A DNA stretch of 23,284 nt from a virus. How positions within the stretch are numbered: position 1 is the stretch's first letter; each line of letters opens with the position of its first letter. Below are positions 3,637 to 16,664 of the stretch, in pieces. The translations under genes and the position numbers were made by a program. The stretch is from IMG/VR virus record IMGVR_UViG_2162886007_000009, positions 1 through 23,284 of that record. One strand, 5' to 3'. The notes below the pieces were generated by a model. It was not told where the DNA came from and did not search any database. It saw only the letters and a program-made list of their open reading frames with translations.

Positions 3637-4250
3637 TTGCAATGTTCCCGGCAAGTGGCGGAGCCGATGGGAACAAACTTATCAATGGGCACCCATCCCA
3701 AGGCCGACAATTCAATGCAGCCCGGCCGATCGTGCGTATCATGACAATGATTCTCGTTCGGCCCCAAGATCCGCCGCGCCTCTGTAAATCCACTTATACC
3801 GGCGGACCAGAGCCGCCAGTTTTCAAATAAACCATTCCCGGCCCCGATCAATCTCCCGGAGCGAGCCAGCGCGATTCCATTGGCCGGCATCCGTCCCGAG
3901 GAGATATCATCCGTCAAATCGTTTAGGAATAGGAGCAGGAGCAAGGCAATCTCCAGCCAGTGATTCCTCTCCTCTTCGCTCATCTGCTCATCACTGCCGC
4001 GCGCAATGTCGGCCGTGACCCGATAGGATAATTTAGCAAGCCGGGCCGTTTCGTCGTACCATCGCTGAGGGTCAATGGTCCCAGCTATCAATTGAGACAT
4101 GAGCGCCCGCGCCTCTGCCTGGACCCCGGCGACAAATCGATTGATATCCAATTTGATCGATTTGTCTGGAATGGTCCGCCGGCCCCTGGATGTTTCGGCA
4201 TAGTAGGAAAGATTATTCGGATTGTATCCATAACGTGGCCGCGCGCTCAT
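3606..4250 (-). CDS. Mu F-like head morphogenesis (minor capsid) protein (214 aa)
   Basis: This is probably a minor head protein of the Mu gpF type, which acts with the portal during head assembly or DNA ejection. The C-terminus holds the signature: GPNENHCHDTHDRPGC (163-178), W186 in the ALGW segment, then CREHCKC (200-206). It is a cysteine and histidine pattern of the kind found in the Mu F C-terminal domain, where it probably binds a metal. The N-terminal 160 residues are mostly helical, including a strongly hydrophobic helix IALLLLLFLNDL near 101-112. The gene starts four bases before the end of the upstream zincin gene (ATGA overlap), with GGGAGAG as ribosome-binding site, so they are likely made together. 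It is shorter than classical Mu F proteins, and the toxin-like C-terminal extension often seen there is absent. That role may be taken by its upstream neighbour. Confidence 0.7.
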   Translation of the reverse strand: MSARPRYGYNPNNLSYYAETSRGRRTIPDKSIKLDINRFVAGVQAEARALMSQLIAGTIDPQRWYDETARLAKLSYRVTADIARGSDEQMSEEERNHWLEIALLLLLFLNDLTDDISSGRMPANGIALARSGRLIGAGNGLFENWRLWSAGISGFTEARRILGPNENHCHDTHDRPGCIELSALGWVPIDKFVPIGSATCREHCKCRADFRRSS

Positions 4251-5008
4251 TTTCTCTCCCTGGCATAGAAGTCATAAAATCTCATGACCTCCTCATCATA
4301 GGTTTGACCATCCCGCAAGCCAGCGTAAACCTCGGAAACAAATTCACGCGGATTGACGGCCGCATATTTGCTAACCCGCAGCGCCGCATCCCGGCCGCCG
4401 TTCCAATTGATCGGCGGATCAAATTTTTCATGGCCGTGTTCGTGATAAACCGGGTGTAATGGATTCGAGGAGGACCACCAGCCCGCTTTATGAATCTTTG
4501 ACGCGTTCCCTTTTGGGTCCTTCCAATAGCCCGCCCGAGGATTTATAAATATTTCGCCGGTCACATTGTTATAACTAGCCGGCTCATCTTTGGGGACTTT
4601 TGTAAGGCTGGTTGTTGTGACTTTCATTCCGAGCCGTTCCGCTTCTGCTCCTGCAATCGATATATTATTGGACTTATTGAAATCCAATCCAGACGCCCCG
4701 CCGGACTCCCTTGGCAGACTCCCCCCCACTTGACCAGGACGCCCGGCATGGTCCGGAAAATCATTCTGCAAAACTTGATTATCGAATAATCTCAAATCGC
4801 TCCGCTTTTCATCTGCAGTGAATTCAATCAGATCCCCGCGGCCGGCATACGCGCGCCAAAGGTCTTTTGCCTGGCGGATCTCATCGGGTGTGAATTCATC
4901 GATGAATCTATATATCTCATGACCTTCCATTTTCCGGATCGGTCCCGCCTGGATGATCCTTGGACCCGTAAAAATGGACCGTACGCGCGGCCGGCTGGTT
5001 TGGAACAT
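4247..5008 (-). CDS. Virion-associated protein with zincin-like metallopeptidase domain (253 aa)
   Basis: This protein appears to have three parts. Residues 1-80 are a short N-terminal region of unknown fold. Residues 82-104 are the linker NDFPDHAGRPGQVGGSLPRE and following residues, nearly identical to one in the portal protein. Residues 115-253 form a small alpha/beta domain with HEHGH at 189-193, an HExxH zinc-binding motif, and a downstream Glu in EFVSEVYAG (225) that could be the third ligand. This arrangement is typical of compact zincins found in phage polyvalent and head-associated proteins. The role is inferred: such domains ride in the virion and may act on host proteins after injection, or process virion proteins. 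No good Shine-Dalgarno site is seen. A TATAAT box at 5015-5020 lies so close to the ATG that a leaderless transcript is conceivable. Confidence 0.6.
   Translation of the reverse strand: MFQTSRPRVRSIFTGPRIIQAGPIRKMEGHEIYRFIDEFTPDEIRQAKDLWRAYAGRGDLIEFTADEKRSDLRLFDNQVLQNDFPDHAGRPGQVGGSLPRESGGASGLDFNKSNNISIAGAEAERLGMKVTTTSLTKVPKDEPASYNNVTGEIFINPRAGYWKDPKGNASKIHKAGWWSSSNPLHPVYHEHGHEKFDPPINWNGGRDAALRVSKYAAVNPREFVSEVYAGLRDGQTYDEEVMRFYDFYARERK
4697..4765 (-). repeat. Shared linker-coding segment, copy in the zincin gene
   Basis: Encodes residues 82-104 of the zincin protein. It shares 21 of 23 residues with the portal segment encoded by 9509-9577, with key residues DHAGRPG and VGGSLPRESGG. The DNA has diverged more than the protein, which argues for selection on the peptide and against a very recent duplication. 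Confidence 0.85.
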
Positions 5009-5034: not shown

Positions 5035-5062
5035 AAAATTGGTGTGTTAGCAACCCTTGACA
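5035..5062 (+). repeat. Early promoter upstream repeat, copy 1
   Basis: AAAATTGG, three variable bases, then GTTAGCAACCCTTGACA. The same arrangement is found at 13190-13217, with the 17-base block identical. It overlaps the -35 box, so it may be a repressor or activator site. Both copies lie between divergently oriented genes. Confidence 0.85.
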
Positions 5063-5085
5063 GACCGTTATATATCGGGTATAAA
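5057..5085 (+). promoter_or_regulatory. Early promoter 1 (TTGACA, 17 bases, TATAAA)
   Basis: TTGACA at 5057-5062 and TATAAA at 5080-5085 are separated by exactly 17 bases, close to the sigma70 consensus. It drives the plus-strand operon starting at 5112. The in-frame ATG at 5085 overlaps the -10 box, so it cannot be the translation start. Confidence 0.85.
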
Positions 5086-5111
5086 TGGGTCATAACAAGG
5101 AGATAAAACCA

Positions 5112-5354
5112 ATGAAAACAAACGTTTCCCTCCACATCACATTTAGCCCGGAACGCTGGAGCCAGGTATGCCAGGCTACCATTCCGGCCCATTATGAAGG
5201 TTTCAGCCCTTCAATCTGTTACGGCGGAAATACAGCCCTTGCCGGTGAGCAGATCCGCTTTGATGGCAATTCCCGCCAGGATGTTATAAATTCCGTTATT
5301 GCGGAATTGCACTCCCGGAACCTTCATGGCTCATTGAAAGTTATTGACGGGTAA
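5112..5354 (+). CDS. Unknown small early protein (80 aa)
   Basis: I do not recognise this protein. It is the first gene of the plus-strand operon. I chose the ATG at 5112 because AAGGAG lies nine bases upstream and because an earlier in-frame ATG at 5085 falls inside the -10 box. The product starts MKTNVSLHITFSPERWSQVC and shows a strand-rich first half with GFSPSICYGGNTALAG. A helix follows (RQDVINSVIAELHSRNL), then a short terminal strand (GSLKVIDG). This alpha/beta pattern could be a small globular domain. First genes of phage early operons often encode host-takeover or anti-defence factors, but nothing in the sequence identifies a function. The next gene begins five bases after its stop. 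Confidence 0.65.
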   Translation: MKTNVSLHITFSPERWSQVCQATIPAHYEGFSPSICYGGNTALAGEQIRFDGNSRQDVINSVIAELHSRNLHGSLKVIDG

Positions 5355-5358
5355 TTCA

Positions 5359-5754
5359 ATGATTGATCAAAATAATCCCTACGATTACCCCAACAAACCG
5401 GAAAACAAAACCCGGCGTTTTGCGTTCAAGTGCCACTATAAACCATGTGGATTCCGCTGGACTGCCGATCTCGTTTTGACTTGCACCGGCTGGACCTTCG
5501 ATACCCGGTACGGCTACCATAAACCCCAATGGGGTTTTCTCGGAGCCGGCCCGTTTCGTGGTGAATATGGACATTGCCCAAATTGTAATTCCAACCGCAT
5601 CAGCGGCCAGACCATCATAGGCCACAAGAATGATACTCCCTGCGATCATCGATGCACTGGAGCCAGAGGCCATATCTGTGAATGCTCCTGCGGTGGTGAA
5701 AATCATGGCAAGGATCGTTTGATAACCCTAACCAAAACAAACAAGGAGATTTAA
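5359..5754 (+). CDS. Cysteine-rich zinc-ribbon-like early protein (131 aa)
   Basis: The protein has two probable metal sites. The first comprises CHYKPC with W at 441-461 of the region (residues about 24-33) and CPNC near residues 73-76, a spacing suggesting a zinc ribbon. The second is the motif CDHRCTGARGHICECSCGG near residues 95-113, followed by NHG. I believe this Cys-His motif recurs in phage-encoded proteins of unknown function, but I cannot verify that here. The ATG at 5359 was chosen over an upstream TTG at 5344, which lies inside the previous gene; the ribosome-binding site is weak and translation may be coupled. The C-terminus is short and basic. A nucleic-acid-binding role is possible but is only inference from the metal sites. 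Confidence 0.65.
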   Translation: MIDQNNPYDYPNKPENKTRRFAFKCHYKPCGFRWTADLVLTCTGWTFDTRYGYHKPQWGFLGAGPFRGEYGHCPNCNSNRISGQTIIGHKNDTPCDHRCTGARGHICECSCGGENHGKDRLITLTKTNKEI

Positions 5755-5757
5755 CCA

Positions 5758-6387
5758 ATGACAACCAAACCCAAACACTTTGAAAAGCCCGCCGGTTTTC
5801 TGGCTGGATGCGACGCCAGCGAAGATAACCACAACGGAAGCGCCCTGTACCTCCTGGAAGGTATTGAGGAAACACTCAAAACGCTCCGCCGGAAATACGT
5901 CATCACGGCAATTGAATCCAACAGCATCCCAGCTTGGGCCAAAGAATTCAACGCCGTTAGAATTCGCTTCCACTATAAGGACCAGCCCAGCCCCATCCAA
6001 AAGGCCTTGGACGCGGCCGCCAGTCGAGACATCCGGATCGCCAAAAAACATGGCTCCGTGGTCATTGCACAAACCAAACTTGGCACCCTTCAACTCGTTT
6101 TCAATGGTAGCGCGTTCACCCTTACGCAATGGGGAACCACAGACCGGGGACCGGCGACAATCGCCAGAGACGCCGGCGAATCCATTATCCGGAGCGAATT
6201 GAAAAATGCGTATGATGTGGTGACCGACGAATGCCAACACTCATGGCGAGCCGTCACAAATGGCGAGCATTTTGTTTTATATCATGTCTGTGATAAATGC
6301 GACGTTCGCCAAACCCAACCCATTCCGGCGGAACAGACTCGGATCGAAAATGAATTATCTGAATGGGGTCACCCTTCCCGCCAGTAA
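5758..6387 (+). CDS. Unknown early protein with C-terminal CxxC motif (209 aa)
   Basis: I do not recognise this protein. The ATG follows AACAAGGAGAT, a ribosome-binding leader shared word for word with three other early genes. The first 150 residues look like an alpha/beta domain, with a helix LLEGIEETLKTLRRKY, strands around AVRIRFHYK, and a basic stretch DIRIAKKHGSVVIAQTKLG. The C-terminal 50 residues contain CQHSWRAV and VCDKCDVRQTQPIP, a Cys-His and CxxC pattern that could bind zinc in a ribbon. It is the second consecutive gene with possible zinc sites. There is no signal peptide or membrane segment. The operon continues after a structured intergenic region. Confidence 0.65.
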   Translation: MTTKPKHFEKPAGFLAGCDASEDNHNGSALYLLEGIEETLKTLRRKYVITAIESNSIPAWAKEFNAVRIRFHYKDQPSPIQKALDAAASRDIRIAKKHGSVVIAQTKLGTLQLVFNGSAFTLTQWGTTDRGPATIARDAGESIIRSELKNAYDVVTDECQHSWRAVTNGEHFVLYHVCDKCDVRQTQPIPAEQTRIENELSEWGHPSRQ

Positions 6388-6406
6388 ATTGATTTATTCC
6401 CTCTAG

Positions 6407-6438
6407 CCTGGTCCGGACCTTATCGGGTCCGGAGCAGG
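6407..6438 (+). promoter_or_regulatory. Strong intergenic hairpin upstream of the DUF932-like gene
   Basis: TCCGGACC (6412-6419) pairs with GGTCCGGA (6426-6433) around a six-base loop. CCTG (6407-6410) pairs with CAGG (6435-6438) after one G-G mismatch. There is no T-run downstream, so it is not a standard terminator. It may act as a processing or mRNA-stability element within the operon. Confidence 0.6.
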
Positions 6439-6441
6439 ATA

Positions 6442-6472
6442 GACGGTATAAAACCATATTTTCCCAACCGTC
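6442..6472 (+). promoter_or_regulatory. Second intergenic inverted repeat before the DUF932-like gene
   Basis: GACGGT (6442-6447) and ACCGTC (6467-6472) could pair around a 19-base AT-rich loop containing TATAAAAC. It ends shortly before the AACAAGGAGAT ribosome-binding site. It could regulate translation of the next gene or be part of a protein-binding site. Confidence 0.35.
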
Positions 6473-6493
6473 ATAAAAACAAGGAGATTCAAA

Positions 6494-7552
6494 ATGTTAG
6501 ACACGACCAGCACGACCACCGTACAAAGCCTGTTAGATCAAAGCATCGAGCAGGACAGCCATAAGGCCGACTATCAAGCCCCGGCCCGGCAATTCAGTTT
6601 TGATGACCAATCCAGATTGGTCCCCGCCGTTGAAAATAATCTTTTCGGCGAAAGTGTTTCCCCTTCCCCTCTACATCCTACGCCGTGGGCCTGGAGCCAG
6701 ATTTTTACTAAACTCGGCCCCACTGTTTTCGGCAAAGATAAAGTAAAGGGACTCCCCTCTGATTATCTGCTCGCATTGCGCCCGGAGCAGCGGGCCGGCC
6801 TTTTGAACGATCATCTACAAGGCACTTCGACAAACTGGCTTGTGCGTTCATTCGACGACAACGCCCGCGCGGTCCTATCGGATAAATTCACGAAGATCGA
6901 TAATTCTCACCTGTTGGATATTCTCAACAAGGTAGCCGAGGGAAGCAATCTCCCTTACAGTGTGACCCGTAATTCATCCGTGAACCCGGACAGCCTGAAT
7001 ATTCGAATCATCTGGAAAGATATTCAACTGCCCGGCGGCCGCGGTGGTTATGGCATCGGAACATATATCCGCAATGGTGAAACCGGGAACCGCAGAGGCG
7101 GAATCTTCCCCCTCATTCAGCGGCATTCCTGTCAGAATTCCATCATTGTCGATGATCGAACCAATGCCTATGAATTCCTACACCTGGGCAACGCCTCCAG
7201 CAAACTAACATTGATCAAGGCCGCGATCGTTGATATTCTACCTTTTGCCGCTCATCTGCTGGATCAATTCATCAAGGCCGACGCGGAGCAGATCCCGGAT
7301 TTTTCAGATGTGATTTCCGGACTGTGCAAGCAGTACGGCTGGGGTGAATCGGTCCAGACCCGAATCGCCGTCGGCACCGAAGGCCGGGACACTCGATTCG
7401 GTTTGATCAATGGCATCACTTGGGCCGCTCATGAGATTTCTAATCCGGACCTTGAATCAGACCTGGAGATCATCGGCGGATCTCTTTTACTTGCCCCGGA
7501 TAGTGTATTCCACAAAGCCGCCCAGCTCGCACAGCTTGAGCGCCGATCGTAA
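6494..7552 (+). CDS. DUF932-like phage/plasmid protein (352 aa)
   Basis: This protein matches the general pattern of DUF932 proteins, which occur widely on phages and plasmids and whose biochemical role is unknown to me. The key stretch is at residues 114-141, NWLVRSFDDNARAVLSDKF followed by the TKIDNSHLL segment. Family members carry a comparable V-R...RA-LSD-Y...DN segment. Downstream are a glycine-rich strand region (GGRGGYGIGTYIRNGE), then PLIQRHSCQNSI and helical segments. The length is normal for the family. The ATG lies six bases after AACAAGGAGAT. A long structured leader precedes it and another strong hairpin follows it, which would allow its expression to differ from its neighbours. 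It is the largest gene of this operon. An anti-defence or DNA-metabolism role is plausible from the company such proteins keep, but is inference. Confidence 0.7.
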   Translation: MLDTTSTTTVQSLLDQSIEQDSHKADYQAPARQFSFDDQSRLVPAVENNLFGESVSPSPLHPTPWAWSQIFTKLGPTVFGKDKVKGLPSDYLLALRPEQRAGLLNDHLQGTSTNWLVRSFDDNARAVLSDKFTKIDNSHLLDILNKVAEGSNLPYSVTRNSSVNPDSLNIRIIWKDIQLPGGRGGYGIGTYIRNGETGNRRGGIFPLIQRHSCQNSIIVDDRTNAYEFLHLGNASSKLTLIKAAIVDILPFAAHLLDQFIKADAEQIPDFSDVISGLCKQYGWGESVQTRIAVGTEGRDTRFGLINGITWAAHEISNPDLESDLEIIGGSLLLAPDSVFHKAAQLAQLERRS

Positions 7553-7560
7553 TCAATCAT

Positions 7561-7589
7561 TCCCCTCCCTGGACCATCCGGGGAGGGGA
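7561..7589 (+). promoter_or_regulatory. Strong hairpin between DUF932-like and DUF3560-like genes
   Basis: TCCCCTCCC (7561-7569) pairs with GGGAGGGGA (7581-7589). The stem continues inward through a U-G pair and GG/CC to a five-base loop (ACCAT), making about 12 pairs. No T-run follows, and a ribosome-binding site begins eight bases later. A processing or attenuation element is likelier than a terminator. Confidence 0.6.
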
Positions 7590-7614
7590 ACCAATAGACA
7601 AGGAGAAAAAAACC

Positions 7615-8424
7615 ATGTCCAGACTAACCCCCGAAGAATACGAAGAAAAACGATATAAGCGATATTTAAGATTGAAAGCCGCCAGCCTCCGGACCGAAAA
7701 GGAATCGACCGGCTTGATCGCTCAGGCCCATGATATGGCCAGCATTATTCCATTCGGTCAGCCGATCCTGATCGGTCATCACAGCGAAGCAAGGGACCGC
7801 AATTATAGAGGGCGCATCGAAAACAAATTCCGCAAAGGCTTTGCCCTTTACGAAAAGTCTCAGGACCTCGCCGATCGAGCGGAAGCGGCAAAAAATAATA
7901 CCGCCATATTCACAGATGACCCGGCCGCCGCGGACAAACTGGAGGAGCGCATAGCGCAACTGGAGCAGCGCCAGGACCTAATGAAAGCCGCGAATAAACT
8001 GGCCCGCAAACAGGACCGGGCCGGACTGGCAGCCCTTGGATTTTCTGAAACCCGGATCAATGATTTATTGACTCCGGATTATATCGGCCGCCTTGGATTT
8101 GCCAGCTTTGAAATCACAAACAACGGAGCCAACCTCCGCCGATTGAAAGAGCGCCTGCAGTTTATCAAGGCTCATGAGAATGACACCAATTCAGAGAAAA
8201 CCATTTGCGGCGTTCAGATCGTGGACAATGCGGAAGCCAACCGGCTCCAGCTTATCTTTTCCGCCCGCGTATCTAGGGAATGTTACGCAGAATTAAAAAA
8301 GAACGGTTTCCGGTATTCCCCCTCCGTCGGTGAATTCGCTTTCCAGGCTTATCGCGGCCGCTGGAATAGTGACAACGCCGAACGGATCATAAAAAAATAT
8401 TTTGGACCCACAGAACAGGAGTAA
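7615..8424 (+). CDS. DUF3560-like protein (269 aa)
   Basis: The segment at residues 41-70, MASIIPFGQPILIGHHSEAR with DRNYRGRIENKF, is the hallmark of DUF3560 proteins. These are found on plasmids, phages and mobile islands, and their biochemistry is unknown to me. After it come a helical Ala- and Lys-rich region (residues about 75-140, with a likely coiled coil DKLEERIAQLEQRQDLM) and an alpha/beta C-terminus (CGVQIVDN; LQLIFSARVSRECYAELKKNGFRYSP; YRGRWNSDNAERIIKKYF). The C-terminal part looks like a small domain that recurs alone in mobile-element proteins. The ATG is preceded by GACAAGGAGA. Its stop is five bases before the next start, so translation is likely coupled. Co-occurrence with the DUF932-like gene fits the mobile-element habit of these families. 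Confidence 0.75.
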   Translation: MSRLTPEEYEEKRYKRYLRLKAASLRTEKESTGLIAQAHDMASIIPFGQPILIGHHSEARDRNYRGRIENKFRKGFALYEKSQDLADRAEAAKNNTAIFTDDPAAADKLEERIAQLEQRQDLMKAANKLARKQDRAGLAALGFSETRINDLLTPDYIGRLGFASFEITNNGANLRRLKERLQFIKAHENDTNSEKTICGVQIVDNAEANRLQLIFSARVSRECYAELKKNGFRYSPSVGEFAFQAYRGRWNSDNAERIIKKYFGPTEQE

Positions 8425-8429
8425 ACCTT

Positions 8430-8663
8430 ATGCCTAAATTCATCGATATACAAATTTCAGACGCCCTTAATTGTGAGGTCAGCGATCTTGATTTCACAGA
8501 TTTCACAGACGGGACTCTCTCCCCCTCTCAATACTCCTGTACTGTGGAAGTGAAGGGAGTCGCCGTCGATTGTTATTTCATCGACGGGACAATCTCCCGC
8601 ATCCTGGACGCTACCACCGGCGAGCAGGTATTCATCAGGGAAGGGGAGCAGAATGAAAGATAA
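8430..8663 (+). CDS. Unknown small acidic protein (77 aa)
   Basis: I do not recognise this protein. AGGAG lies nine bases before the ATG, and the gene follows the DUF3560-like gene with a five-base gap. The product is acidic, with a repeated DFTDFTDG segment near residues 21-28. The remainder is strand-rich (YSCTVEVKGVAVDCYFIDGTIS). It overlaps the start of the next gene by 11 bases. A small acidic protein could be a DNA mimic, an inference from charge alone. Confidence 0.6.
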   Translation: MPKFIDIQISDALNCEVSDLDFTDFTDGTLSPSQYSCTVEVKGVAVDCYFIDGTISRILDATTGEQVFIREGEQNER

Positions 8664-8847
8664 ACCCGAATCCGTGAAAGGCAGGCAGGCAAAGCGCCGG
8701 GCGGATCTCAACAGAATCGCCCGCGCGGCCGGTTATTCATCCTGGACCGTTTACGAAACCGCCGTCATTCATTCTCTAATCAGATTATCAGGATATAATA
8801 AAAGGAATAAGAACGGAGTCAGACATGGCAAAAGACAAACCAACTAA
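8653..8847 (+). CDS. Unknown small basic protein, possible helix-turn-helix-like (64 aa)
   Basis: I do not recognise this protein. The start overlaps the previous gene by 11 bases and has GGGGAG about six bases upstream. The sequence is basic: KGRQAKRRADLNRIARAAGY is followed by SSWTVYETAVIHSLIRLSGY. It would form two helices separated by a turn, a shape found in small DNA-binding proteins and in some plasmid-encoded peptides. The C-terminal NKRNKNGVRHGKRQTN tail overlaps the next gene. Because it is so short, its reality rests on the ribosome-binding site and tight packing. Confidence 0.5.
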   Translation: MKDKPESVKGRQAKRRADLNRIARAAGYSSWTVYETAVIHSLIRLSGYNKRNKNGVRHGKRQTN

Positions 8848-9025
8848 GCCAACCCGAATCCAATTCCCCCAGGGAGTGGAGTCCCCGCAGATCCTGCAGA
8901 CCATCAAGCAATTACGCGATGAATGGGCCGCACGTAATCCAGAGATAGCGCATAAACTCTACCCGGACCTATACCCGGCTCCGCCTCCAGATGGTAACCC
9001 GGATGAAACAAAGCCGGCAGAATAA
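8825..9025 (+). CDS. Unknown small proline-rich protein (66 aa), last gene of the early operon
   Basis: I do not recognise this protein. GGAG lies six bases before the ATG, and the start overlaps the previous gene by 23 bases. The middle forms a helix, ESPQILQTIKQLRDEWAARN, and the C-terminus is proline-rich (YPDLYPAPPPDG) and probably disordered. The stop codon lies five bases before the bidirectional terminator, so this is the last gene of the operon. There is no clue to function. Confidence 0.55.
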   Translation: MAKDKPTKPTRIQFPQGVESPQILQTIKQLRDEWAARNPEIAHKLYPDLYPAPPPDGNPDETKPAE

Positions 9026-9030
9026 AAAAA

Positions 9031-9050
9031 GCCCTCCGATCTCGGAGGGC
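9031..9050. terminator. Bidirectional rho-independent terminator
   Basis: GCCCTCCGA and TCGGAGGGC form a perfect nine-pair inverted repeat with a minimal centre. It is flanked by seven A bases on the left and TTTTACTTT on the right, so each strand gets a U-run. It separates the plus-strand operon (stop at 9025) from the portal gene arriving from the right (stop at 9053). Confidence 0.9.
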
Positions 9051-9052
9051 TT

Positions 9053-11068
9053 TTACTTTGGATTCGCGGCATACCATTCTCGTTGATCGGCTGGAATATC
9101 CAGCCCCGGATTTTCGGATAGATAGTCAGACAAGAAAACAGTGTTGAAGGTATTCATATCAAAGATCGCTTTCTGCTTTGTGGCGGCCGCGACTTTTATG
9201 GTTTCGTCCAGGCTGTCGAAATTCCCGGACGCGTCCAAATAGAATTTACCATCCTCTTCATTCAACCATCCCCCGACATACATATTTGAACCCTTTAGCA
9301 AATCGGCTTTTGAGGTCAGGAATGAATCAATCTGCTGGAGCGCCTCATCATCAGACAGATCCGGCGAAAAGATTGGACCATCTTCGATGGAGGTCATATA
9401 TCCGCCCTTTGGCGAATCCTTCGACGCCGGCCGATAAGAAAACCCGCCTGGACTATCCCGGAGCAGTTCCAGGATCTTCCGCGATCCCGTATCCTTAGCC
9501 GGTCCGCCTCCGCCTGATTCGCGCGGCAGGCTCCCACCAACTTTCCCGGGCCGGCCTGCATGGTCCTCAAAATCATTATGGACCGCCAGCCCATGGCCAT
9601 TCGCTCCGTTCCCATTCCCGCCGGCCTTGAGAAGATCCGGGAGAGAGGTCATTGTCGGAAGTTTCCCCGGAACCATCCCCGGCGGTTTGATCAATGGATT
9701 CGCCGGCTGGATCACAACCATCGGCGGCATTCCCAATTCGCCGCGCCATTCATCGATAGATATGGCCTCATCCGGTACGCCGTTCGTTATTGTGTTCGCT
9801 CCCTGTGCAACGACCAGCGCATAATTGGCGCGCTCGATTTCATTCATGGTATAGACCGGCGGCCATTCGACATTAAATTTTCCGCTTGCGGGTGGTGGGA
9901 TAACTTTATGCTGAATACACCACTGGACAAACGGCCGTAATACTTCCGGCTCTGCAAAATTATTTTGCCGGCTCTTGATCGTTCCATTCCATTCCTGTTG
10001 GTCCTGGCTGGAGGCCAATTCCCCGCGCTCGGCACCGAATAGAATCCGCTGAGGGATTCCAACAGATCCGGACAAATCCGTTTTGAGTGTGTCGTATATA
10101 TCCCGGATGCGGACTTCCTCGACTCCGAGATCATGCACGTCCGCCCCATCGATCACGGCGTACCGCTGGATCTGATTCATGAGTTTGGTCATTTGCTCAT
10201 CCAAATTTTTCATGACCGGCGAATCAGATTCCGGCGTGGTGTATCCCTCGCGCGGCAATAAGAGAATGCCCTTATACACTGCCAGCCATGCAGCCTCCGC
10301 GCCTCCGCCGGTGACCTTTTCCAAATCGAATAAACGATTAATAATGGTCTGCAGTCGCGGCCGTCCATAGATCCGAGAGCCGAGTCGGTTTTCGGATACA
10401 TGCACAACCCTGGAATAATGGACCGATGACCCTCCGGTAAATTGGACGCCTTGATCGACGGAATTGAATGAGACGGTATACTCTGCCGGCATCCCAAATT
10501 TTTCGTTCCGTTCATCCTGGATGAATTGGGTTATGCTCGCTTGATTTTCATCATAGGCCGCCAGATAAAATAAACCATTCTCCCCGGCCGGCTCTGCATA
10601 ACTTTCTCCAGGAGCGCCCAAAAAGATTATGGAATACTTTCCAATGCCACACATGATATCTGCCTGGCGGAAGATTTGATAAACCCCCAGGCGATTGACA
10701 AGTTTATCCCATTGGACCAGGAAGGGAGTCGCCTGCTCCCCGATATCATCCGAGCGCCCATTGCCATCGATCAAAACCGGAGCCTTGCCCCAGGTGGAGT
10801 CGGCGAACTTATCAATGATACGCGCGGCCAGCCCATGCCGATCATATAGATTCCGGTAGTCGTGATAATCTGGACTGAATGGATAACCAAAGGTTTTATA
10901 TAGATCCCGCTTTCCCCCAAATTGAGTCCCCAGCCGGCCATGCAACATGGCCCGCGACATCTCCTGAGCATTGCGGAACGTACTGAGAACGAATTGAGCC
11001 TGGTCGAATTCTTTCGATCGGGCTTTCTTGTTGTTGGTCCTTACGCTTGGTTTTCGTTTGGCAGGCAT
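9053..11068 (-). CDS. Portal protein, DUF1073-type, with added C-terminal domain (671 aa)
   Basis: The portal forms the ring through which DNA enters and leaves the head. The body resembles DUF1073 portals, with LYDRHGLAARIIDKFADSTW near residues 74-93, SRVVHVSENRLGSRIYGRPR near 219-238, and FGAERGELASSQDQQEWNG near 344-362. Residues 498-520 are the linker NDFEDHAGRPGKVGGSLPRE, shared with the zincin protein. Residues 539-644 add a separate domain with GGFSYRP, GGYMTSIEDG, MYVGGWLNEEDGKFYLDASG and KQKAIFDMNTF. I recall this pattern in head-associated proteins of other phages. The ATG at 11068 gives MPAKRKPSVRT. The frame runs on to a TTG at 11131 and an ATG at 11089, but those codons lie in the conserved leader and hairpin, so they are less likely. 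No strong Shine-Dalgarno site is seen for any of them. The stop adjoins the terminator. Confidence 0.8.
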   Translation of the reverse strand: MPAKRKPSVRTNNKKARSKEFDQAQFVLSTFRNAQEMSRAMLHGRLGTQFGGKRDLYKTFGYPFSPDYHDYRNLYDRHGLAARIIDKFADSTWGKAPVLIDGNGRSDDIGEQATPFLVQWDKLVNRLGVYQIFRQADIMCGIGKYSIIFLGAPGESYAEPAGENGLFYLAAYDENQASITQFIQDERNEKFGMPAEYTVSFNSVDQGVQFTGGSSVHYSRVVHVSENRLGSRIYGRPRLQTIINRLFDLEKVTGGGAEAAWLAVYKGILLLPREGYTTPESDSPVMKNLDEQMTKLMNQIQRYAVIDGADVHDLGVEEVRIRDIYDTLKTDLSGSVGIPQRILFGAERGELASSQDQQEWNGTIKSRQNNFAEPEVLRPFVQWCIQHKVIPPPASGKFNVEWPPVYTMNEIERANYALVVAQGANTITNGVPDEAISIDEWRGELGMPPMVVIQPANPLIKPPGMVPGKLPTMTSLPDLLKAGGNGNGANGHGLAVHNDFEDHAGRPGKVGGSLPRESGGGGPAKDTGSRKILELLRDSPGGFSYRPASKDSPKGGYMTSIEDGPIFSPDLSDDEALQQIDSFLTSKADLLKGSNMYVGGWLNEEDGKFYLDASGNFDSLDETIKVAAATKQKAIFDMNTFNTVFLSDYLSENPGLDIPADQREWYAANPK
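9509..9577 (-). repeat. Shared linker-coding segment, copy in the portal gene
   Basis: Encodes 23 residues of the portal (key residues DHAGRPG and VGGSLPRESGG) that match the zincin protein segment encoded by 4697-4765 at 21 positions. In both proteins it is the border between an N-terminal part and a different C-terminal domain. Confidence 0.85.
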
Positions 11069-11079
11069 ATAATAAAAAT

Positions 11080-11110
11080 CCGCATCCATCCCACAGGGGA
11101 ACGAATGCGG
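11080..11110 (-). promoter_or_regulatory. Leader RNA hairpin upstream of the portal gene
   Basis: On the minus strand CCGCATTCGTTCC (11098-11110) pairs with GGGATGGATGCGG (11080-11092) over 13 bases with three G-U wobbles and the five-base loop CCTGT. It ends 11 bases before the portal ATG, followed by ATTTTTATTAT. The 5' arm is identical to that of copy A, while the 3' arm differs and still pairs. Confidence 0.7.
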
Positions 11111-11150
11111 CCAGTCTTTTGAAACAGACAAGGAACGCGGGATTAATTTG
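11099..11150 (-). repeat. Conserved late leader, copy B
   Basis: Carries an 18-base block identical to 3278-3295 and a 28-base block with one difference from 3304-3331. It lies between the TATAAT box and the portal start. See copy A for the partner. Confidence 0.85.
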
Positions 11151-11158
11151 TGACTGGA

Positions 11159-11167
11159 ATTATAACA
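11159..11167 (-). promoter_or_regulatory. Extended -10 promoter for the portal transcript (TGTTATAAT)
   Basis: The minus strand reads TGTTATAAT, one base after the large terminase stop codon. No recognisable -35 hexamer is present at 17 bases. Its distance to the conserved leader is identical to that of the protease promoter at 3340-3348. Confidence 0.65.
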
Positions 11168-12712
11168 CTACTTGACCGGCCACGCCCCCATTTGTTTTAG
11201 GCCCCCGGTCAGATCCTTGTGGGTCCAGAACCATGAATCGGCGACATCAAGCGGAGCCTTTGGGAATCTGCGGAGCGCCGATTCAATTACTGCATGGGTC
11301 CCGATCATATGCCGAACCATTCCATTCTCATATGATGGAAGCAGTTTACTATTTCGCTCGACCTTGGACCCGTACGCGTGCCCGGTCGTTTCATCGGTCC
11401 CGCCGGCTTTGGCATAATTGAATCGCGGCCATGAGATGGATTTGTATTCCGCCTCTGTCAATTCTTTTTTTAATTTCTCCTTGACCTCATCCAGTGCCCG
11501 GAGATAGACACTCCGCCAGGTATCCCCGCCCTGGTCCGTTTCGACTCCCACGGTCAGGGATTTTATTTCAATGGCTTTTCTTATGGCCCGTTCGAGCGCG
11601 TCCTCCGGTGTGGTGATATCCTCCCATCCATAAATATAATCGACGACTTTGAGTTTTGTTATTCCGCCGGCCGTGATCCCCATCGAATCGGATTCATCGG
11701 TTGAAGATACCGCCGGATCGACCCATACAGCCGTACGCACATAATCCGGCTTGTCCTCAAATCTAAAGTGCTGGAAATCTATCTCATCCCAGATCCCGCC
11801 GGTCTTGTCGACTCGGTGTTGTGCCTCATTCATGAATGCCGTGAACCCCCAGCGAGTCATTTGTGCCTGGCACGTTTCGAGGTCTTGCCCTTCCCAGGTC
11901 GGCCGGCCGCCGGTGATGGTATACGCTCCGTTGATCTGCTCGTATTCCAAATTCTCCACAGCTGGGAAGGGACCGGAGACTATTTTATCCGCCAGCATCT
12001 CCGCGCGGCCATCCAACAACCGGGAGGCGATTGAGTCAGCAGTAATCAGATTTTGAATGAATAGAATCGCGCAATCATTGGAGCCAGCCGGCAGGATCGT
12101 ATTGGATAAGGTTTCCAATTTCTTTTTGGTTGTGGCGAAGCTATCAAATTTTTCGTCAACGTCATCGATGATCATCAAGTCGGGCCGGTGTTCGTCCATC
12201 TTTCCGCCCCGCGCGCCGGTGTCCAATCCCAGCGCGTCGATCGTAAATCCGGAAGCGGTCCGCAAACGTGACCGCCGCCAGCCCTTTGAATTTCCATATT
12301 TATTGACAGCCCGATCCGATATCTCCGGATAGTATTTATTCGTCTCACTGGACTCCAGCATGGTCGAAATAGAGTCGACGTGTTGATCGGCTTTGTCCTG
12401 GATTGAACAGATATACCAAGCGTAATGGCGGACATTATGAGCCGCCAGTTTGATGACTGCTCCCTCTGCGCTCATTGACTTAGCGCCTCCCCTGGACCAG
12501 AACGCACAGAACGGCCGCGGAGCAATCCCCGGCCGGATACCATCGATCCATTTCCAAAAGTCCGCATGACGCGGCGCAAATGGTTTATTGAAATGATTCG
12601 GGAATAACGTGGTCAGCCATTCATCCCAGCGGGCCGGAGCCGTGAGAGTAATCCCCGCGCGCTTGCGCCGCCGGATTTCTAATTCCGCCTGGATGGTCAG
12701 ATCGAGATTCAT
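11168..12712 (-). CDS. terL: Terminase large subunit (514 aa)
   Basis: The large terminase pumps DNA into the prohead and cuts the concatemer. The N-terminal ATPase half shows FWSRGGAKS at 71-79, a Walker A-like loop of the terminase variety, and PDLMIIDDVDE at 177-187 as Walker B with adjacent acidic residues. The C-terminal RNase H-like nuclease half shows AVWVDPA (Asp332), VGVETDQGGDTW (Glu391, Asp393) and PLDVADSWFW (Asp489, Asp492), the spaced acidic residues expected for metal binding. The length is normal. The start overlaps the small terminase stop by four bases (ATGA), and since the ribosome-binding site is weak, coupling is likely. The late promoter for the portal begins directly after its stop. 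All key motifs are present and there is no sign of an intein or frameshift. Confidence 0.93.
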   Translation of the reverse strand: MNLDLTIQAELEIRRRKRAGITLTAPARWDEWLTTLFPNHFNKPFAPRHADFWKWIDGIRPGIAPRPFCAFWSRGGAKSMSAEGAVIKLAAHNVRHYAWYICSIQDKADQHVDSISTMLESSETNKYYPEISDRAVNKYGNSKGWRRSRLRTASGFTIDALGLDTGARGGKMDEHRPDLMIIDDVDEKFDSFATTKKKLETLSNTILPAGSNDCAILFIQNLITADSIASRLLDGRAEMLADKIVSGPFPAVENLEYEQINGAYTITGGRPTWEGQDLETCQAQMTRWGFTAFMNEAQHRVDKTGGIWDEIDFQHFRFEDKPDYVRTAVWVDPAVSSTDESDSMGITAGGITKLKVVDYIYGWEDITTPEDALERAIRKAIEIKSLTVGVETDQGGDTWRSVYLRALDEVKEKLKKELTEAEYKSISWPRFNYAKAGGTDETTGHAYGSKVERNSKLLPSYENGMVRHMIGTHAVIESALRRFPKAPLDVADSWFWTHKDLTGGLKQMGAWPVK

Positions 12713-13146
12713 TTCTTTTTCGTCTTGGCCTGCATGACCTCCCGGATCACCTCAGCCAGAATTGACTCACCTGATTCACCGGCCCGCAGTCTCTGCAGTT
12801 GACCATCTGTAAACAGTTCTATATTCTCCTGGATGAATCTGCTCACGTCGAATGTATTGACATTGATTTCATCCGGGACCTTTCCGAATCCAATCTCCAG
12901 TGCTTTATTCTGCTTGAACCCGTCTTGAGAGAGTATCCAGGTCCGGAGCATAAATTCCGCCTGTGTCTGCTTGACTGTTTGTTCCCCCACATCGACGGAT
13001 ATTTCCTCCTCAAATAGCCTCAAGACCATGGCCCGCAGTTCATCGAATTTCCGCGGCGGGCCGTCCAGGTGTCGCCGTGGATCAAATCCCGGTTGAAATG
13101 GTTTCCCCTTTCCCCTTGGTTTTCCCTTCGGTTTTTTCGCTACCAT
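12709..13146 (-). CDS. Probable terminase small subunit (145 aa)
   Basis: The position directly before and overlapping the large terminase, the size, and the sequence make this the DNA-recognising small terminase. It begins with a basic tail, KKPKGKPRGKGKPFQPGFD and PRRH, a pattern common at the front of small terminases and of DUF5681-like proteins. Helices follow (KFDELRAMVLRLFEEEI; VKQTQAEFMLRTWIL), then a long acidic helix near the C-terminus (LQRLRAGESGESILAEVIREVMQAK). I chose the ATG at 13146, with AAAGGG about seven bases upstream, over the more distant in-frame codon at 13218, which would lie inside the divergent early promoter. It is transcribed away from the RadC gene. No promoter with a clear -35 was found for it. 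Confidence 0.7.
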   Translation of the reverse strand: MVAKKPKGKPRGKGKPFQPGFDPRRHLDGPPRKFDELRAMVLRLFEEEISVDVGEQTVKQTQAEFMLRTWILSQDGFKQNKALEIGFGKVPDEINVNTFDVSRFIQENIELFTDGQLQRLRAGESGESILAEVIREVMQAKTKKK

Positions 13147-13163
13147 AATATACCCTTTGAATA

Positions 13164-13190
13164 TGGCAGATTTTCGCAGACCATCTGCCA
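13164..13190. promoter_or_regulatory. Inverted repeat in the divergent region (TGGCAGA / TCTGCCA)
   Basis: A perfect seven-base inverted repeat, TGGCAGA (13164-13170) and TCTGCCA (13184-13190), with 13 bases between. It lies between the small terminase start and the early promoter. The spacing puts both halves on about the same face of the helix, as in operators. It has no counterpart at the other early promoter. Confidence 0.4.
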
Positions 13191-13217
13191 AAATTGGACG
13201 GTTAGCAACCCTTGACA
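13190..13217 (+). repeat. Early promoter upstream repeat, copy 2
   Basis: AAAATTGG, three variable bases, then GTTAGCAACCCTTGACA, matching 5035-5062. The first base is shared with the adjacent inverted repeat. Confidence 0.85.
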
Positions 13218-13240
13218 CCTTAGAAAGTGTATGATATATT
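13212..13240 (+). promoter_or_regulatory. Early promoter 2 (TTGACA, 17 bases, TATATT)
   Basis: TTGACA at 13212-13217 and TATATT at 13235-13240 are 17 bases apart. It drives the RadC-ParB operon. An in-frame ATG at 13231 overlaps the -10 region and is therefore not the translation start. Confidence 0.85.
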
Positions 13241-13266
13241 CAAAGGTAACAAGGAGATACCAACCA

Positions 13267-13839
13267 ATGAACCAGAACGAAATTTCCATCTTAAATGATC
13301 TTTTGTCCATCAGCCCAAAGGATCGAATCGGCGAAACCCTTCTGAAAGAATGGGGCACCCTTACCAATCTGTACCAGAACATTGACGCCGCAGATTTGAC
13401 CCCCCGCCAGCGTAAGGTATTGAGCGCGGCCAAGCAAGTTTTATTCGTCCGAGAAGAACGGCCGCTTATCCAATCCCCTGCAGATACGGCCGCACTTCTG
13501 GCGGATCTCAAAACCGAAATCCAGGAGCATTTTATCGTGTTGGTCCTGGACCGCCGAAATAGAATTCTGGAACGTGTCAATCTATATAAGGGGAACGCCA
13601 GTTCCATCCAAGTCCGTCCCGGCGAAATTTTCCGCAAAGCCATCATTCTAAACGCCTCCGCGATCATCATAGCTCATAACCATCCAAGCGGCGACCCAAC
13701 CCCCAGCCCGGATGATGTCGCCGTGACTCGGGCCGTCGTGGCCGCCGGTAAAATTCTTGATGTTGACGTTTTAGATCATATCGTAATCGGCATCGATGGT
13801 TTTGTTTCACTGAAAGAACGGGGACTCGGATTTTCATGA
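13267..13839 (+). CDS. radC: RadC-like JAB/MPN domain protein (190 aa)
   Basis: The C-terminal 110 residues carry the complete RadC JAMM site: EHFIVLVLDRRNRIL near 87-101, then AHNHPSGDPTPSPDD at 136-150, with His137, His139 and Asp150 as zinc ligands. The ending VLDHIVIG with FVSLKERGLGF is also typical. The N-terminal part (residues 1-65) is a short helical domain like that of cellular RadC. The length is a little below that of bacterial RadC. RadC genes are common on phages and plasmids, yet their biochemical role is unsettled; the old DNA-repair name should be used with care. The start has AAGGAG ten bases upstream, within the shared AACAAGGAGAT leader. It is the first gene of the operon and overlaps the ParB start (ATGA). 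Confidence 0.88.
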   Translation: MNQNEISILNDLLSISPKDRIGETLLKEWGTLTNLYQNIDAADLTPRQRKVLSAAKQVLFVREERPLIQSPADTAALLADLKTEIQEHFIVLVLDRRNRILERVNLYKGNASSIQVRPGEIFRKAIILNASAIIIAHNHPSGDPTPSPDDVAVTRAVVAAGKILDVDVLDHIVIGIDGFVSLKERGLGFS

Positions 13840-14711
13840 AAAGTGTCCAACAGATCCCGATCAAATCCATTCGCACCGGAAACAACGACCGCAAAGCCTT
13901 TGACCAAAAGGCTTTGCGGGAACTCGCGGACAGCATCCGGGAGCATGGATTGATCGAGCCGATCATCTTGAGAAAATCCATCGATGGACTGTATACCCTG
14001 GTCGCCGGTGAGCGCCGGCTCCGAGCCTGTACGTTATTAGGACTTGAATCCATACCCTCAATTATAGCCGACTTGACCGATGAGGAAGCGGCCGCGATCA
14101 TGCTTGCAGAAAATGTTTCCCGCGTGGACCTGGACCCGATCGACGAGGCGCAAGCCTATAAAATCCGGATCGATAAATTCTCCTGGACAATCGAAGAATG
14201 CGCCAGGCGGGCCGGGACTTCCAAGATCAAGGTCCAATTTAGACTCAAACTCTTGACACTCAATCCAGAACTCCAGCATTTGATCCGCTCCGGCAATCTG
14301 CAGATCGGATATGCACAAATTTTATCAGACGGCGGACTCGATCCAAACCGCCAGCTTATGGCCGTGTCTGCACTCCGAGACAACCCCCGACCGACTCCGG
14401 GATGGTTCCGGAACATCGTGAACCAGTACCAGACCCAACAGAATCAGGCCAATCTATTCGATGATGTTTTCCTGGTATGTCAGCCGGTCCCGGTCCAAAT
14501 CCAAAAGAATGACCCGCCGCATCCATCCACGACCACGCCCCCAACCATCGGCCGGACCAAATTGGCCATATTGAAAAATCAGGCCGCATTCTGGCTTTCA
14601 GCGGCCCGAGCCTGGGCAGAGATTGGAAAGCCATTCAAAAAACAAGAGTGTGAGGTGGCCGCTCTGGCCGTCCAACATGCCGCTAATCTTTTTATTTCAG
14701 AAAGGAAATAA
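13836..14711 (+). CDS. parB: ParB/Spo0J-family protein (291 aa)
   Basis: The N-terminal domain (about residues 5-96) shows the ParB pattern: LRELADSIREHGLIEPIILR, then VAGERRLRA with GERR at 58-61, then MLAENVSRVDLDP with ENVSR at 92-96. A helix-turn-helix region follows (SWTIEECARRAGTSKIKVQFRL), in line with canonical ParB/RepB proteins. The C-terminus is divergent. It contains QANLF at 204-208, which fits the beta-clamp pattern Q-x-x-L-F. There is no ParA gene in the window, so partition of a plasmid-prophage is uncertain. Phage ParB-like proteins may instead act as regulators or in DNA metabolism; CTP binding through the GERR motif is known for the family. The start overlaps the RadC stop by four bases. 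Confidence 0.88.
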   Translation: MKSVQQIPIKSIRTGNNDRKAFDQKALRELADSIREHGLIEPIILRKSIDGLYTLVAGERRLRACTLLGLESIPSIIADLTDEEAAAIMLAENVSRVDLDPIDEAQAYKIRIDKFSWTIEECARRAGTSKIKVQFRLKLLTLNPELQHLIRSGNLQIGYAQILSDGGLDPNRQLMAVSALRDNPRPTPGWFRNIVNQYQTQQNQANLFDDVFLVCQPVPVQIQKNDPPHPSTTTPPTIGRTKLAILKNQAAFWLSAARAWAEIGKPFKKQECEVAALAVQHAANLFISERK

Positions 14712-14716
14712 TCATC

Positions 14717-15247
14717 ATGTCATCCATCAATAATAAATTATCCAAAACCTATGGGATCAGAGACCTCGGCCTATTCGGCTCAGAGATCATCCGGGACGGT
14801 AAGCAGATATTTAAATCTACTTCCAAGGCCTCGAAATTTGAAAACTGGCAGGAGTGCCTCAACTACGCCCGGACTCATATCGGCCTACGCCACAGGGACT
14901 CCGACCCGGTATTGATTTATATAACGGATGTATACGGCGAAAAGGTCCGCATCAATGAAAAGGCCTTGAACGATCCCGACCGCCATATTATTCCAATCTA
15001 TAACCGCCTCGGAGATAAGATCGTTGACTCCAAAACATATGACGGGGACAAGGGAAAGGCCTTCATCCACAAAGCCAACATCCCCGGCACCCCGGAACAT
15101 AAAGAGAGCCAGGCGGAAGCGGCCCAAGCCTCCGCTCCTGCAGAGACTGCAGAGCCGGACCCGGAATCATTCCCCAAAGTCAAGGGAGCAGGCGCGGCCC
15201 AATATACATTTGATCTGCAACCCGGCGAACAACTATCATTATTTTAG
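14717..15247 (+). CDS. Unknown early protein ending in a beta-clamp motif (176 aa)
   Basis: I do not recognise the body of this protein. Residues 1-120 form an alpha/beta domain with YGIRDLGLFGSEIIRDG, a helix FENWQECLNYARTHIGL, and IYITDVYGEKVRINEKAL. A disordered Ala, Glu and Pro-rich stretch (about 125-155) follows, then KGAGAAQYTFDL and PGEQLSLF. The last five residues, QLSLF (172-176), match the canonical bacterial sliding-clamp-binding pentapeptide. A clamp motif at the tip of a flexible tail is a common design. I infer that the protein is recruited to replication sites through the host or phage clamp. AAAGGAAA lies nine bases upstream of the ATG. Confidence 0.7.
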   Translation: MSSINNKLSKTYGIRDLGLFGSEIIRDGKQIFKSTSKASKFENWQECLNYARTHIGLRHRDSDPVLIYITDVYGEKVRINEKALNDPDRHIIPIYNRLGDKIVDSKTYDGDKGKAFIHKANIPGTPEHKESQAEAAQASAPAETAEPDPESFPKVKGAGAAQYTFDLQPGEQLSLF

Positions 15248-15261
15248 GAAAGGAAAAAATC

Positions 15262-15555
15262 ATGAATACAGTATCAGAACGTTATGAAATCAAACAGGAG
15301 GGATTCGACGTGATTGTTTATGCCAACACCCTGAACGAGGCCGCAACCAAGGCCCTCAACGCGCTTGAAAGTAAAGTTGAGGGACACGACGCCCCAATAA
15401 CCATAACCGACCGCAGAGCGCGCAAAGGTAAACCGTCTGCATTCACTGCAACCCTTTGCACAGGCGCAGCCCATAGCAATCCCTTTATCGATCATTGCGG
15501 TGTATGTATGCCCTTTTGGGGTGTAGTGATTAGACCGAAAGAATCCAATGAATAA
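15262..15555 (+). CDS. Unknown small early protein (97 aa)
   Basis: I do not recognise this protein. GAAAGGAAA precedes the ATG. The first half is a compact strand-helix unit (RYEIKQEGFDVIVYANTLNEAATKALNALES), a shape reminiscent of small beta-alpha-beta domains. The second half contains a basic RRARKGKPS and three cysteines (LCTGAAHSNPFIDHCGVCMPFW), of which CGVC could bind metal. The stop overlaps the start of the next gene by eight bases. No function is assigned. Confidence 0.6.
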   Translation: MNTVSERYEIKQEGFDVIVYANTLNEAATKALNALESKVEGHDAPITITDRRARKGKPSAFTATLCTGAAHSNPFIDHCGVCMPFWGVVIRPKESNE

Positions 15556-15805
15556 CGAACCAATCAAACAAAGCAAGCGCGGCGGATACCGCAAGAATGC
15601 CAAGCGGCCGACCCTCTACAAATCCGGGAGCATGGCACGAACGACGATCAGCCTCCCGCCTCATCATATGGCCATCTTATCCAAAATCGATAAGGAAACA
15701 TCCCCGGCGATCCGGGTTATCCTGGACGATCCCCGGATATTATCCATCATTCAGACTATAATTAATGAAAGGAAGAAAAACCATGTCACAGATCAATCTA
15801 TTTGA
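15548..15805 (+). CDS. Possible ribbon-helix-helix DNA-binding protein (85 aa)
   Basis: The N-terminus has KRGGYRKNAKRPTLYKSG, similar to the GG-R-GA-RP-tails found in front of many phage DNA-binding proteins. Residues 31-60 (RTTISLPPHHMAILSKID, then a helix) have the pattern of the ribbon-helix-helix fold: a strand with alternating residues that inserts in the major groove, followed by two helices. The C-terminal helix is LSIIQTIINERKK. It overlaps the previous gene by eight bases and the next by 23. The ribosome-binding site is weak, so translation is probably coupled. It could be the repressor of this operon or of the shared early promoters. That is inference. A small terminase-like or accessory replication protein is the alternative. 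Confidence 0.55.
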   Translation: MNNEPIKQSKRGGYRKNAKRPTLYKSGSMARTTISLPPHHMAILSKIDKETSPAIRVILDDPRILSIIQTIINERKKNHVTDQSI

Positions 15806-16664
15806 GCAACACGATCAAACCCCCACGCCGGAAGATCCGCAGCCGGTCCATTCCGGAAAACTTCCGGAATTGAATGAGGACGGTTATTCCGTCAAAGGGT
15901 GTACATACATTTACGCCCCGCGCGGTCAAGCCGGGGAGTATGCCATGCTTTCGACAAATCCATACCGCGGCTGTGGCCATAAGTGCGCTTATTGTTATGT
16001 CCCGGATGTTCTGCGAATGAAGCGCGAAGAATTCGACGCCGGAGCCATAAGCCGGCCGGACTTCCTGAACCATCTAACAAAGGACGCCCGGAAATATCAG
16101 GCGCTCGGCATTGACAAACAAGTTATGCTATCTTTTACCACCGATCCATTCAATGGGAATAATGAAACCCTGACCCGCCCAACGATCGAGATTATCAAGG
16201 AGCATGGACTCGCATTCTGTACCCTCACCAAGGGCGGGCACAGGGCCAGACCCTACCGGGATTTATTCCGCCCGGACCGGGACGCGTTCGCCTCGACTCT
16301 GACATCCCTGGACGAAAAATTTTCCCTCAAATGGGAACGCGGCGCAACCCTTCCGGCGGACCGAATGGAAACCCTGAAATGGTTTCACGATCAAGGAATT
16401 TTTACATGGGTGTCGCTGGAGCCGGTCCTTGACACAGAGGCGACTCTGCAGATCCTGGAGGAGACTCGCGGCTATGTGGATTTATTCAAGATCGGCCGGG
16501 TCAATTACATCGGCTTGACTAAAACGACCGATTGGGAGGACTTCACTCATCGGGTGGTGGATGTGGTCCAGAAATATAATATTCCCCATTATATAAAAAA
16601 GGATCTCCAGCCACATCTACCGGCCGGGTATCTTAATCCTAAGTATGTCCCTCAGCATAATTAG
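15783..16664 (+). CDS. Radical SAM protein of the SPL/Rv2578c-like type (293 aa)
   Basis: Radical SAM enzymes use a 4Fe-4S cluster to make a 5'-deoxyadenosyl radical. The cluster motif is STNPYRGCGHKCAYCYV, with Cys64, Cys68 and Cys71 (C-x3-C-x2-C). Further pieces of the SPL-like family follow: MLSFTTDPFNGNNETLTRP, then CTLTKGG, then WVSLEPVLDTEATLQIL, and IPHYIKKDL near the end. The substrate is unknown. The family is common on phages and related to spore photoproduct lyase, but photolyase activity is not implied. I chose ATG 15783 (AAAGGAAG eight bases upstream) over a codon 18 bases earlier. The N-terminus then reads MSQINLFEQ, with QINLF at 3-7 fitting the beta-clamp pattern. The stop overlaps the stop of the convergent methyltransferase gene. 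Confidence 0.85.
   Translation: MSQINLFEQHDQTPTPEDPQPVHSGKLPELNEDGYSVKGCTYIYAPRGQAGEYAMLSTNPYRGCGHKCAYCYVPDVLRMKREEFDAGAISRPDFLNHLTKDARKYQALGIDKQVMLSFTTDPFNGNNETLTRPTIEIIKEHGLAFCTLTKGGHRARPYRDLFRPDRDAFASTLTSLDEKFSLKWERGATLPADRMETLKWFHDQGIFTWVSLEPVLDTEATLQILEETRGYVDLFKIGRVNYIGLTKTTDWEDFTHRVVDVVQKYNIPHYIKKDLQPHLPAGYLNPKYVPQHN

Follow-up and report, generated by a model that had tools for sequence, protein, structure and literature searches.

Gene layout around P1 and P2

The window is the complete sequence (23,284 bases) of one IMG/VR virus record and represents a genome fragment of a tailed phage. Its virion genes lie on the - strand: TerS, TerL, portal (Phage_portal_3), gp4247, gp3606, the DUF2213 protease and a capsid protein. 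Two operons, each predicted to be driven by a sigma70-type promoter, lie on the + strand (Table 1). P1 lies between gp4247 (-), for which a family match was not found, and the ORF beginning at 5112 (+); P2 lies between TerS (-, ATG 13143) and RadC (+, 13267). The first-pass annotation had placed a sequence block common to both promoters between divergent structural and early genes, and the two gene pairs bear this out, with the + strand operons predicted to be early from their gene content and orientation. In operon 1, the ORF at 6494 is DUF932-like (a weak tblastn match) and the ORF at 7615 belongs to DUF3560.

Table 1. Promoters, block copies, genes and operons discussed in the text, with positions in the window.
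Feature	Position	Strand	Remarks
Block copy 1, AAAATTGG-TGT-GTTAGCAACCCTTGACA	5035..5062	+	Exact match and identity profile; about -58 to -31 of P1
Block copy 2, AAAATTGG-ACG-GTTAGCAACCCTTGACA	13190..13217	+	Exact match and identity profile; about -58 to -31 of P2
Promoter P1, TTGACA-17-TATAAA	5057..5085	+	11/12 consensus positions
Promoter P2, TTGACA-17-TATATT	13212..13240	+	11/12 consensus positions; TG ahead of -10
Ribosome-binding sequence AACAAGGAGAT, P1 operon	5094..5104	+	7 bases ahead of ATG 5112
Ribosome-binding sequence AACAAGGAGAT, P2 operon	13248..13258	+	8 bases ahead of ATG 13267
Operon 1 (P1-driven, predicted)	5112..9025	+	ORF starts 5112, 5344/5359, 5758, 6494, 7615, 8430, 8653, 8825
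Bidirectional terminator AAAAGCCCTCCGATCTCGGAGGGCTTTT	9027..9054	.	Separates operon 1 from portal gene
Operon 2 (P2-driven, predicted)	13267..16664	+	RadC, ParB, small genes, radical SAM
RadC	13267-13839	+	Operon 2
ParB	13836-14711	+	Operon 2
Small ORFs	14717-15247, 15262-15555, 15548-15805	+	Operon 2; last one "RHH-like" in the first-pass annotation
Radical SAM	15765/15783-16664	+	Operon 2
gp4247	4247..5008	-	Divergent gene adjoining P1; ORF from 5008, alternative start 4930
TerS	12709..13143	-	Divergent gene adjoining P2; L048 counterpart, 35% over 101 aa
TerL	11168-12712	-	After TerS; phrog_38

The late genes of L048, a relative, run in the order TerS-TerL-portal-gp3606-protease-gp1117-MCP, and no homologue of operon 1 was detected there between portal and gp3606. 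This interval is occupied in the window by gp4247, the P1 operon and its terminator. Since no such homologue was detected in L048, operon 1 has the look of a cassette inserted among the late genes.

The DUF2213 head protease (1612-3069, - strand) contains an embedded ParB_N-like domain at residues about 177-271, and the L048 protease has a different insert of ~500 aa at that position. The motif H.GR.G..GGS (DHAGRPGxVGGSLPRE in the window) occurs at 9586 and 4774 (- strand), at 3387 in L049 and at 14686 and 15289 in L048. It precedes differing C-terminal domains: the portal tail, a part of gp4247 with a zincin-like HEHGHEKF, and the L048 protease insert, in which we read an ART-like "LYHGTS" stretch. 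The motif may mark virion-borne enzyme domains for processing or packaging. A 704-aa protein (18837-20951, - strand) combines glycosyltransferase 11 (fucosyltransferase-like), Glyco_transf_7C and methyltransferase domains; a 60% identical relative lies near the portal gene of L049.

The sequence block shared by the two promoters

Matches to TTGACA-N16-18-TATAAT at 11 of 12 positions are limited in the window to P1 and P2, both of which carry the block; the first-pass annotation had likewise found no other near-consensus sigma70 promoters. A simple promoter scan overlooked P1 because its -10 ends in A. Both sites have the hexamers, the 16-18 base spacer and the downstream ribosome-binding sequence and start codon expected of sigma70-type promoters, and their predicted transcription starts lie near 5092 (P1) and 13247 (P2).

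The recurrence of the block at P1 and P2 is confirmed and lies beyond chance. The window contains AAAATTGG-N3-GTTAGCAACCCTTGACA at just two places, both on the + strand, with exact identity at 25 bases where shuffled sequence gives an expectation of 0. A search of the rest of the window, proposed as a check in the first-pass annotation, found no third copy; the next best match agrees at 13 of 19 positions, and shuffles reach 13-15.

To describe the extent of the identity, the two promoters were aligned on their -35 boxes. Identity is 19/22 directly upstream and 6/6 in the -35 box, 4/17 in the spacer, 4/6 in the -10, and 25/98 upstream of the block, so that the values for the spacer and the outer flank are at chance level. 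Across the window, the remaining 26,564 pairs of -35-like hexamers (26,565 pairs in all) never exceed 15/22 in upstream identity. The identity between P1 and P2 is therefore a block with sharp edges, from about -58 to -31, and both copies end exactly on the -35 box, a perfect TTGACA. Past the -10, identity stems from the common ribosome-binding sequence, which also precedes ATG 5758 and ATG 6494 and is distinct from the block, a feature general to the + strand genes of this phage. With no more than chance agreement in the spacer and outer flanks, the block does not stem from recent copying of a longer segment; this, together with the contrast between 19/22 here and at most 15/22 elsewhere, implies selection or exchange acting on the block alone.

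In the block, AAAATTGG (about -58 to -51) and GTTAGCAACCC (about -47 to -37) form two boxes, set roughly one helical turn apart and fused to the perfect -35 box. Dyad symmetry in the block is not above that of shuffles of the same letters, and GTTAGCAACC within it offers hyphenated arms of only 3-4 bases. A site of this asymmetric kind, in fixed register with the -35, can serve as an asymmetric operator, as a binding site for an activator, or as an extended promoter module. A coding origin of the identity was considered, since both copies translate on the - strand to SRVANxPIL in the same frame, and was rejected: at copy 1 a stop codon closes the frame within a few codons, and at copy 2 a good TerS start, at 13143, lies downstream of it.

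The window also contains a second, late pair of promoters with leaders on the - strand, at the protease (3348-3278) and the portal gene (11167-11099). Each has an extended -10 (TGA/TGT-TATAAT) followed, after 12 bases, by identical TTAATCCCGCGTTCCTTGTCTGTT and GACTGGCCGCATTCGTTC. The latter opens a long RNA hairpin, of -41 kcal/mol (z -4.0) in the protease leader and -27 kcal/mol (z -1.9) in the portal leader; both 3' arms pair despite their different sequences. A search of Rfam with these leaders gave no match.

Copies elsewhere and candidate regulators

The only other exact match to the 17-mer in IMG/VR is on L003, a 9,795-base contig that has no differences from the window and therefore provides no independent evidence. 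Among bacterial and archaeal genomes totalling 257 billion bases, exact matches were confined to 8 stretches, versus about 30 expected by chance. A DNA search of annotated phages for the block gave nothing meaningful, and the block is absent from distant relatives whose TerL is about 54% identical. A match to the upstream half alone, AAAATTGGN3GTTAGCAACC, in one other IMG/VR contig was dismissed as chance; it lies within a reading frame and lacks a -35 box. The first-pass annotation had regarded absence of the block from all other phage early regions as evidence against shared control. Apart from the identical L003 the block is indeed absent, a result of little power because the collections hold no close relative of this phage. 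A search for the host by way of TerL gave no match in two phyla (398 and 392 genomes).

None of three relatives (G001-G003) has a block upstream of -35 boxes that is repeated within its genome. In two of them, G002 and G003, GTTAAAAACCCTTGACT occurs at a divergent regulator promoter, next to the gene of a small sigma-region-4-like protein. The motif GTTANNAACCCTTGAC-17-TATA was found across the whole collection in about 6 independent families besides the window, versus 3 for the reversed control, and the GTTAAAAACCCTTGACT likeness is accordingly treated as a generic strong-promoter feature. It gives no good support for a conserved operator, as the relaxed motif is not clearly enriched over that control.

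Of the proteins put forward as the regulator, that at 15548-15805 had been called RHH-like, a description that we could not substantiate. No relevant Pfam, PHROG or NCBIfam model matches it at E up to 10, and a low-confidence single-sequence fold (pLDDT 70) has helices at 38-46, 53-60 and 62-82 and no strand. Another small candidate, at 8653-8847, gives a low-confidence helical hairpin model. ParB, also proposed, is confirmed as a genuine ParB, but the block contains no parS-type palindrome above shuffles. Among the window proteins scanned, from an incomplete fragment, none is repressor-like and none matches an HTH, CI/Cro or integrase family. Probably, the regulator gene lies beyond the 23.3 kb fragment, or the regulator is one of the small uncharacterised proteins that the two operons encode.

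Readings of the block

We give an even chance to the reading that the block is a repressor operator shared by both sigma70-type early promoters and bound by one DNA-binding protein. Such a protein would recognise the non-palindromic site at P1 and P2, and its occupancy would switch both operons on or off jointly. Repression would serve lysogenic control, or an early shut-off before the divergent late genes come into use. Shared control sites that keep gene blocks in step are common in phages. A selected site covering and adjoining both -35 boxes fits the sharp edges of the identity, which makes coordinate control the most economical reading, and from the sequence a single regulator coordinating both operons is plausible. 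The earlier proposal of one regulator for both operons is thus consistent with the pattern of identity; support for the proposed regulator was not found. Repression is more likely than activation, given that the site extends into the -35 box of core promoters that are already close to consensus. In favour of an operator, both block-bearing promoters lie in divergent late/early intergenic regions, with the same ribosome-binding string after each. Against it, only two copies are present in the window and dyad symmetry, which most phage operators have, does not rise above shuffles; nor was a regulator gene recognised among the proteins scanned, or the site found in other phages or in the distant relatives.

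The block might instead be an extended promoter module that is read by the host RNA polymerase alone and tuned for strength, with no dedicated regulator; we regard this as unlikely, though a serious alternative. AAAATT would occupy the distal UP (alpha-CTD) position, judging from geometry, and would be joined in the module by a favoured -47/-37 sequence and the -35 box; both cores are near consensus, T4 early promoters work in this way, and unrelated viral promoters with GTTAnnAACCCTTGAC-17-TATA exist. However, GTTAGCAACCC is not A/T-rich, alpha-CTD contacts would not require letter-for-letter identity, and the excess of 6 over 3 families makes the relaxed motif only weakly commoner than its reversed control. 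We think it somewhat less probable still that the block is a recently moved piece of promoter, whose identity is young rather than selected: a moron-like P1 cassette would have gained a P2-type promoter by recombination, or the block would be homology for module exchange. The insertion-like position of gp4247, operon 1 and the terminator relative to L048 is consistent with such a transfer, as is the ribosome-binding string common to both operons. A moved piece would be expected to be longer or ragged-edged, however, whereas the identity halts exactly at a functional edge, the end of the -35, and agreement in the spacer, the -10 context and the upstream flank is no better than chance.

Two boxes just upstream of the -35, about one helical turn apart, are also the typical geometry of activator binding, and an activator in a class I/II position (about -40 to -58) could boost both promoters. 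Promoters with perfect or near-perfect sigma70 hexamers and 17-base spacing generally require no activator, and the cores of P1 and P2 are of this kind, so we consider this reading improbable. Only a slight chance attaches to a two-way switch, in which the block would provide the early -35 rightward and its CCAATT(TT) half would be an activator box replacing a late -35 leftward; one asymmetric site would then switch early genes off and late genes on. The - strand does carry CCAATT-16-TATAAT at 5042-5015 and CCAATT-16-GAAAAT at 13197-13170. CCAATT-16-TATAAT has exactly one match on that strand, is not commoner than chance when mismatches are allowed, and CCAATT is absent from the two late-leader promoters. 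Least credible, and very improbable, is a site for ParB loading, packaging or replication that stands beside the promoters by chance. The ParB gene of operon 2 and the position of copy 2 next to TerS, a neighbourhood where packaging signals are common, speak for it, but both copies are exactly in register with near-consensus -35 boxes and contain no parS-like palindrome.

The operator reading can be compared with known systems. PL and PR of lambda are two near-consensus sigma70 early promoters that serve two operons under one repressor, with like sites at the -35 region, and the window likewise has two near-consensus promoters, predicted to be early, with the same type of site at the -35. In lambda the operators are symmetric, are grouped in threes and lie on either side of the repressor gene, whereas each promoter here has one non-palindromic site, neither dyad symmetry nor a linked repressor gene (by family match, among the window proteins scanned) was found, and both operons run in the same direction, 8 kb apart. 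The immunity repressor of Cluster A mycobacteriophages (L5/TipsytheTRex) has asymmetric 13-bp operators (PMC9283540). The likeness lies in an asymmetric, direction-dependent repressor site at early promoters (PMC9283540), which is putative here; L5-type phages have >20 sites, many of them intergenic, whereas the window has two copies, both at promoters, rather than the many asymmetric copies of a stoperator system, and no repressor homologue was found in it. T4 early promoters have additional common regions past the core hexamers and match alpha-CTD UP elements (PMC2988021). P1 and P2 resemble them as strong phage promoters, predicted to be early, with common sequence past the core hexamers, UP region included, but T4 has many promoters with a degenerate consensus and the window has two with an exact 25-base set.

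If the block is an operator, it would define co-regulated early genes of an uncultured phage group by sequence alone, supply a ready probe for fishing out the regulator, and extend non-palindromic operators beyond mycobacteriophages. Were it no more than an extended promoter module, it would be ordinary.

Promoters and repeats of other kinds were seen in relatives. L053 (~9500-9560) and L054 (~5338-5390) have two back-to-back promoters whose -35 boxes form an inverted repeat, AAAGTCAAG...CTTGACTTT, between an operon and the gene for a 72-aa sigma-region-4-like regulator; this arrangement is likely a genetic switch. In L048, GTGTATCCAGTGTATTGAGTGTAT repeats and inverted copies flank a region upstream of TerS (8793-9100).
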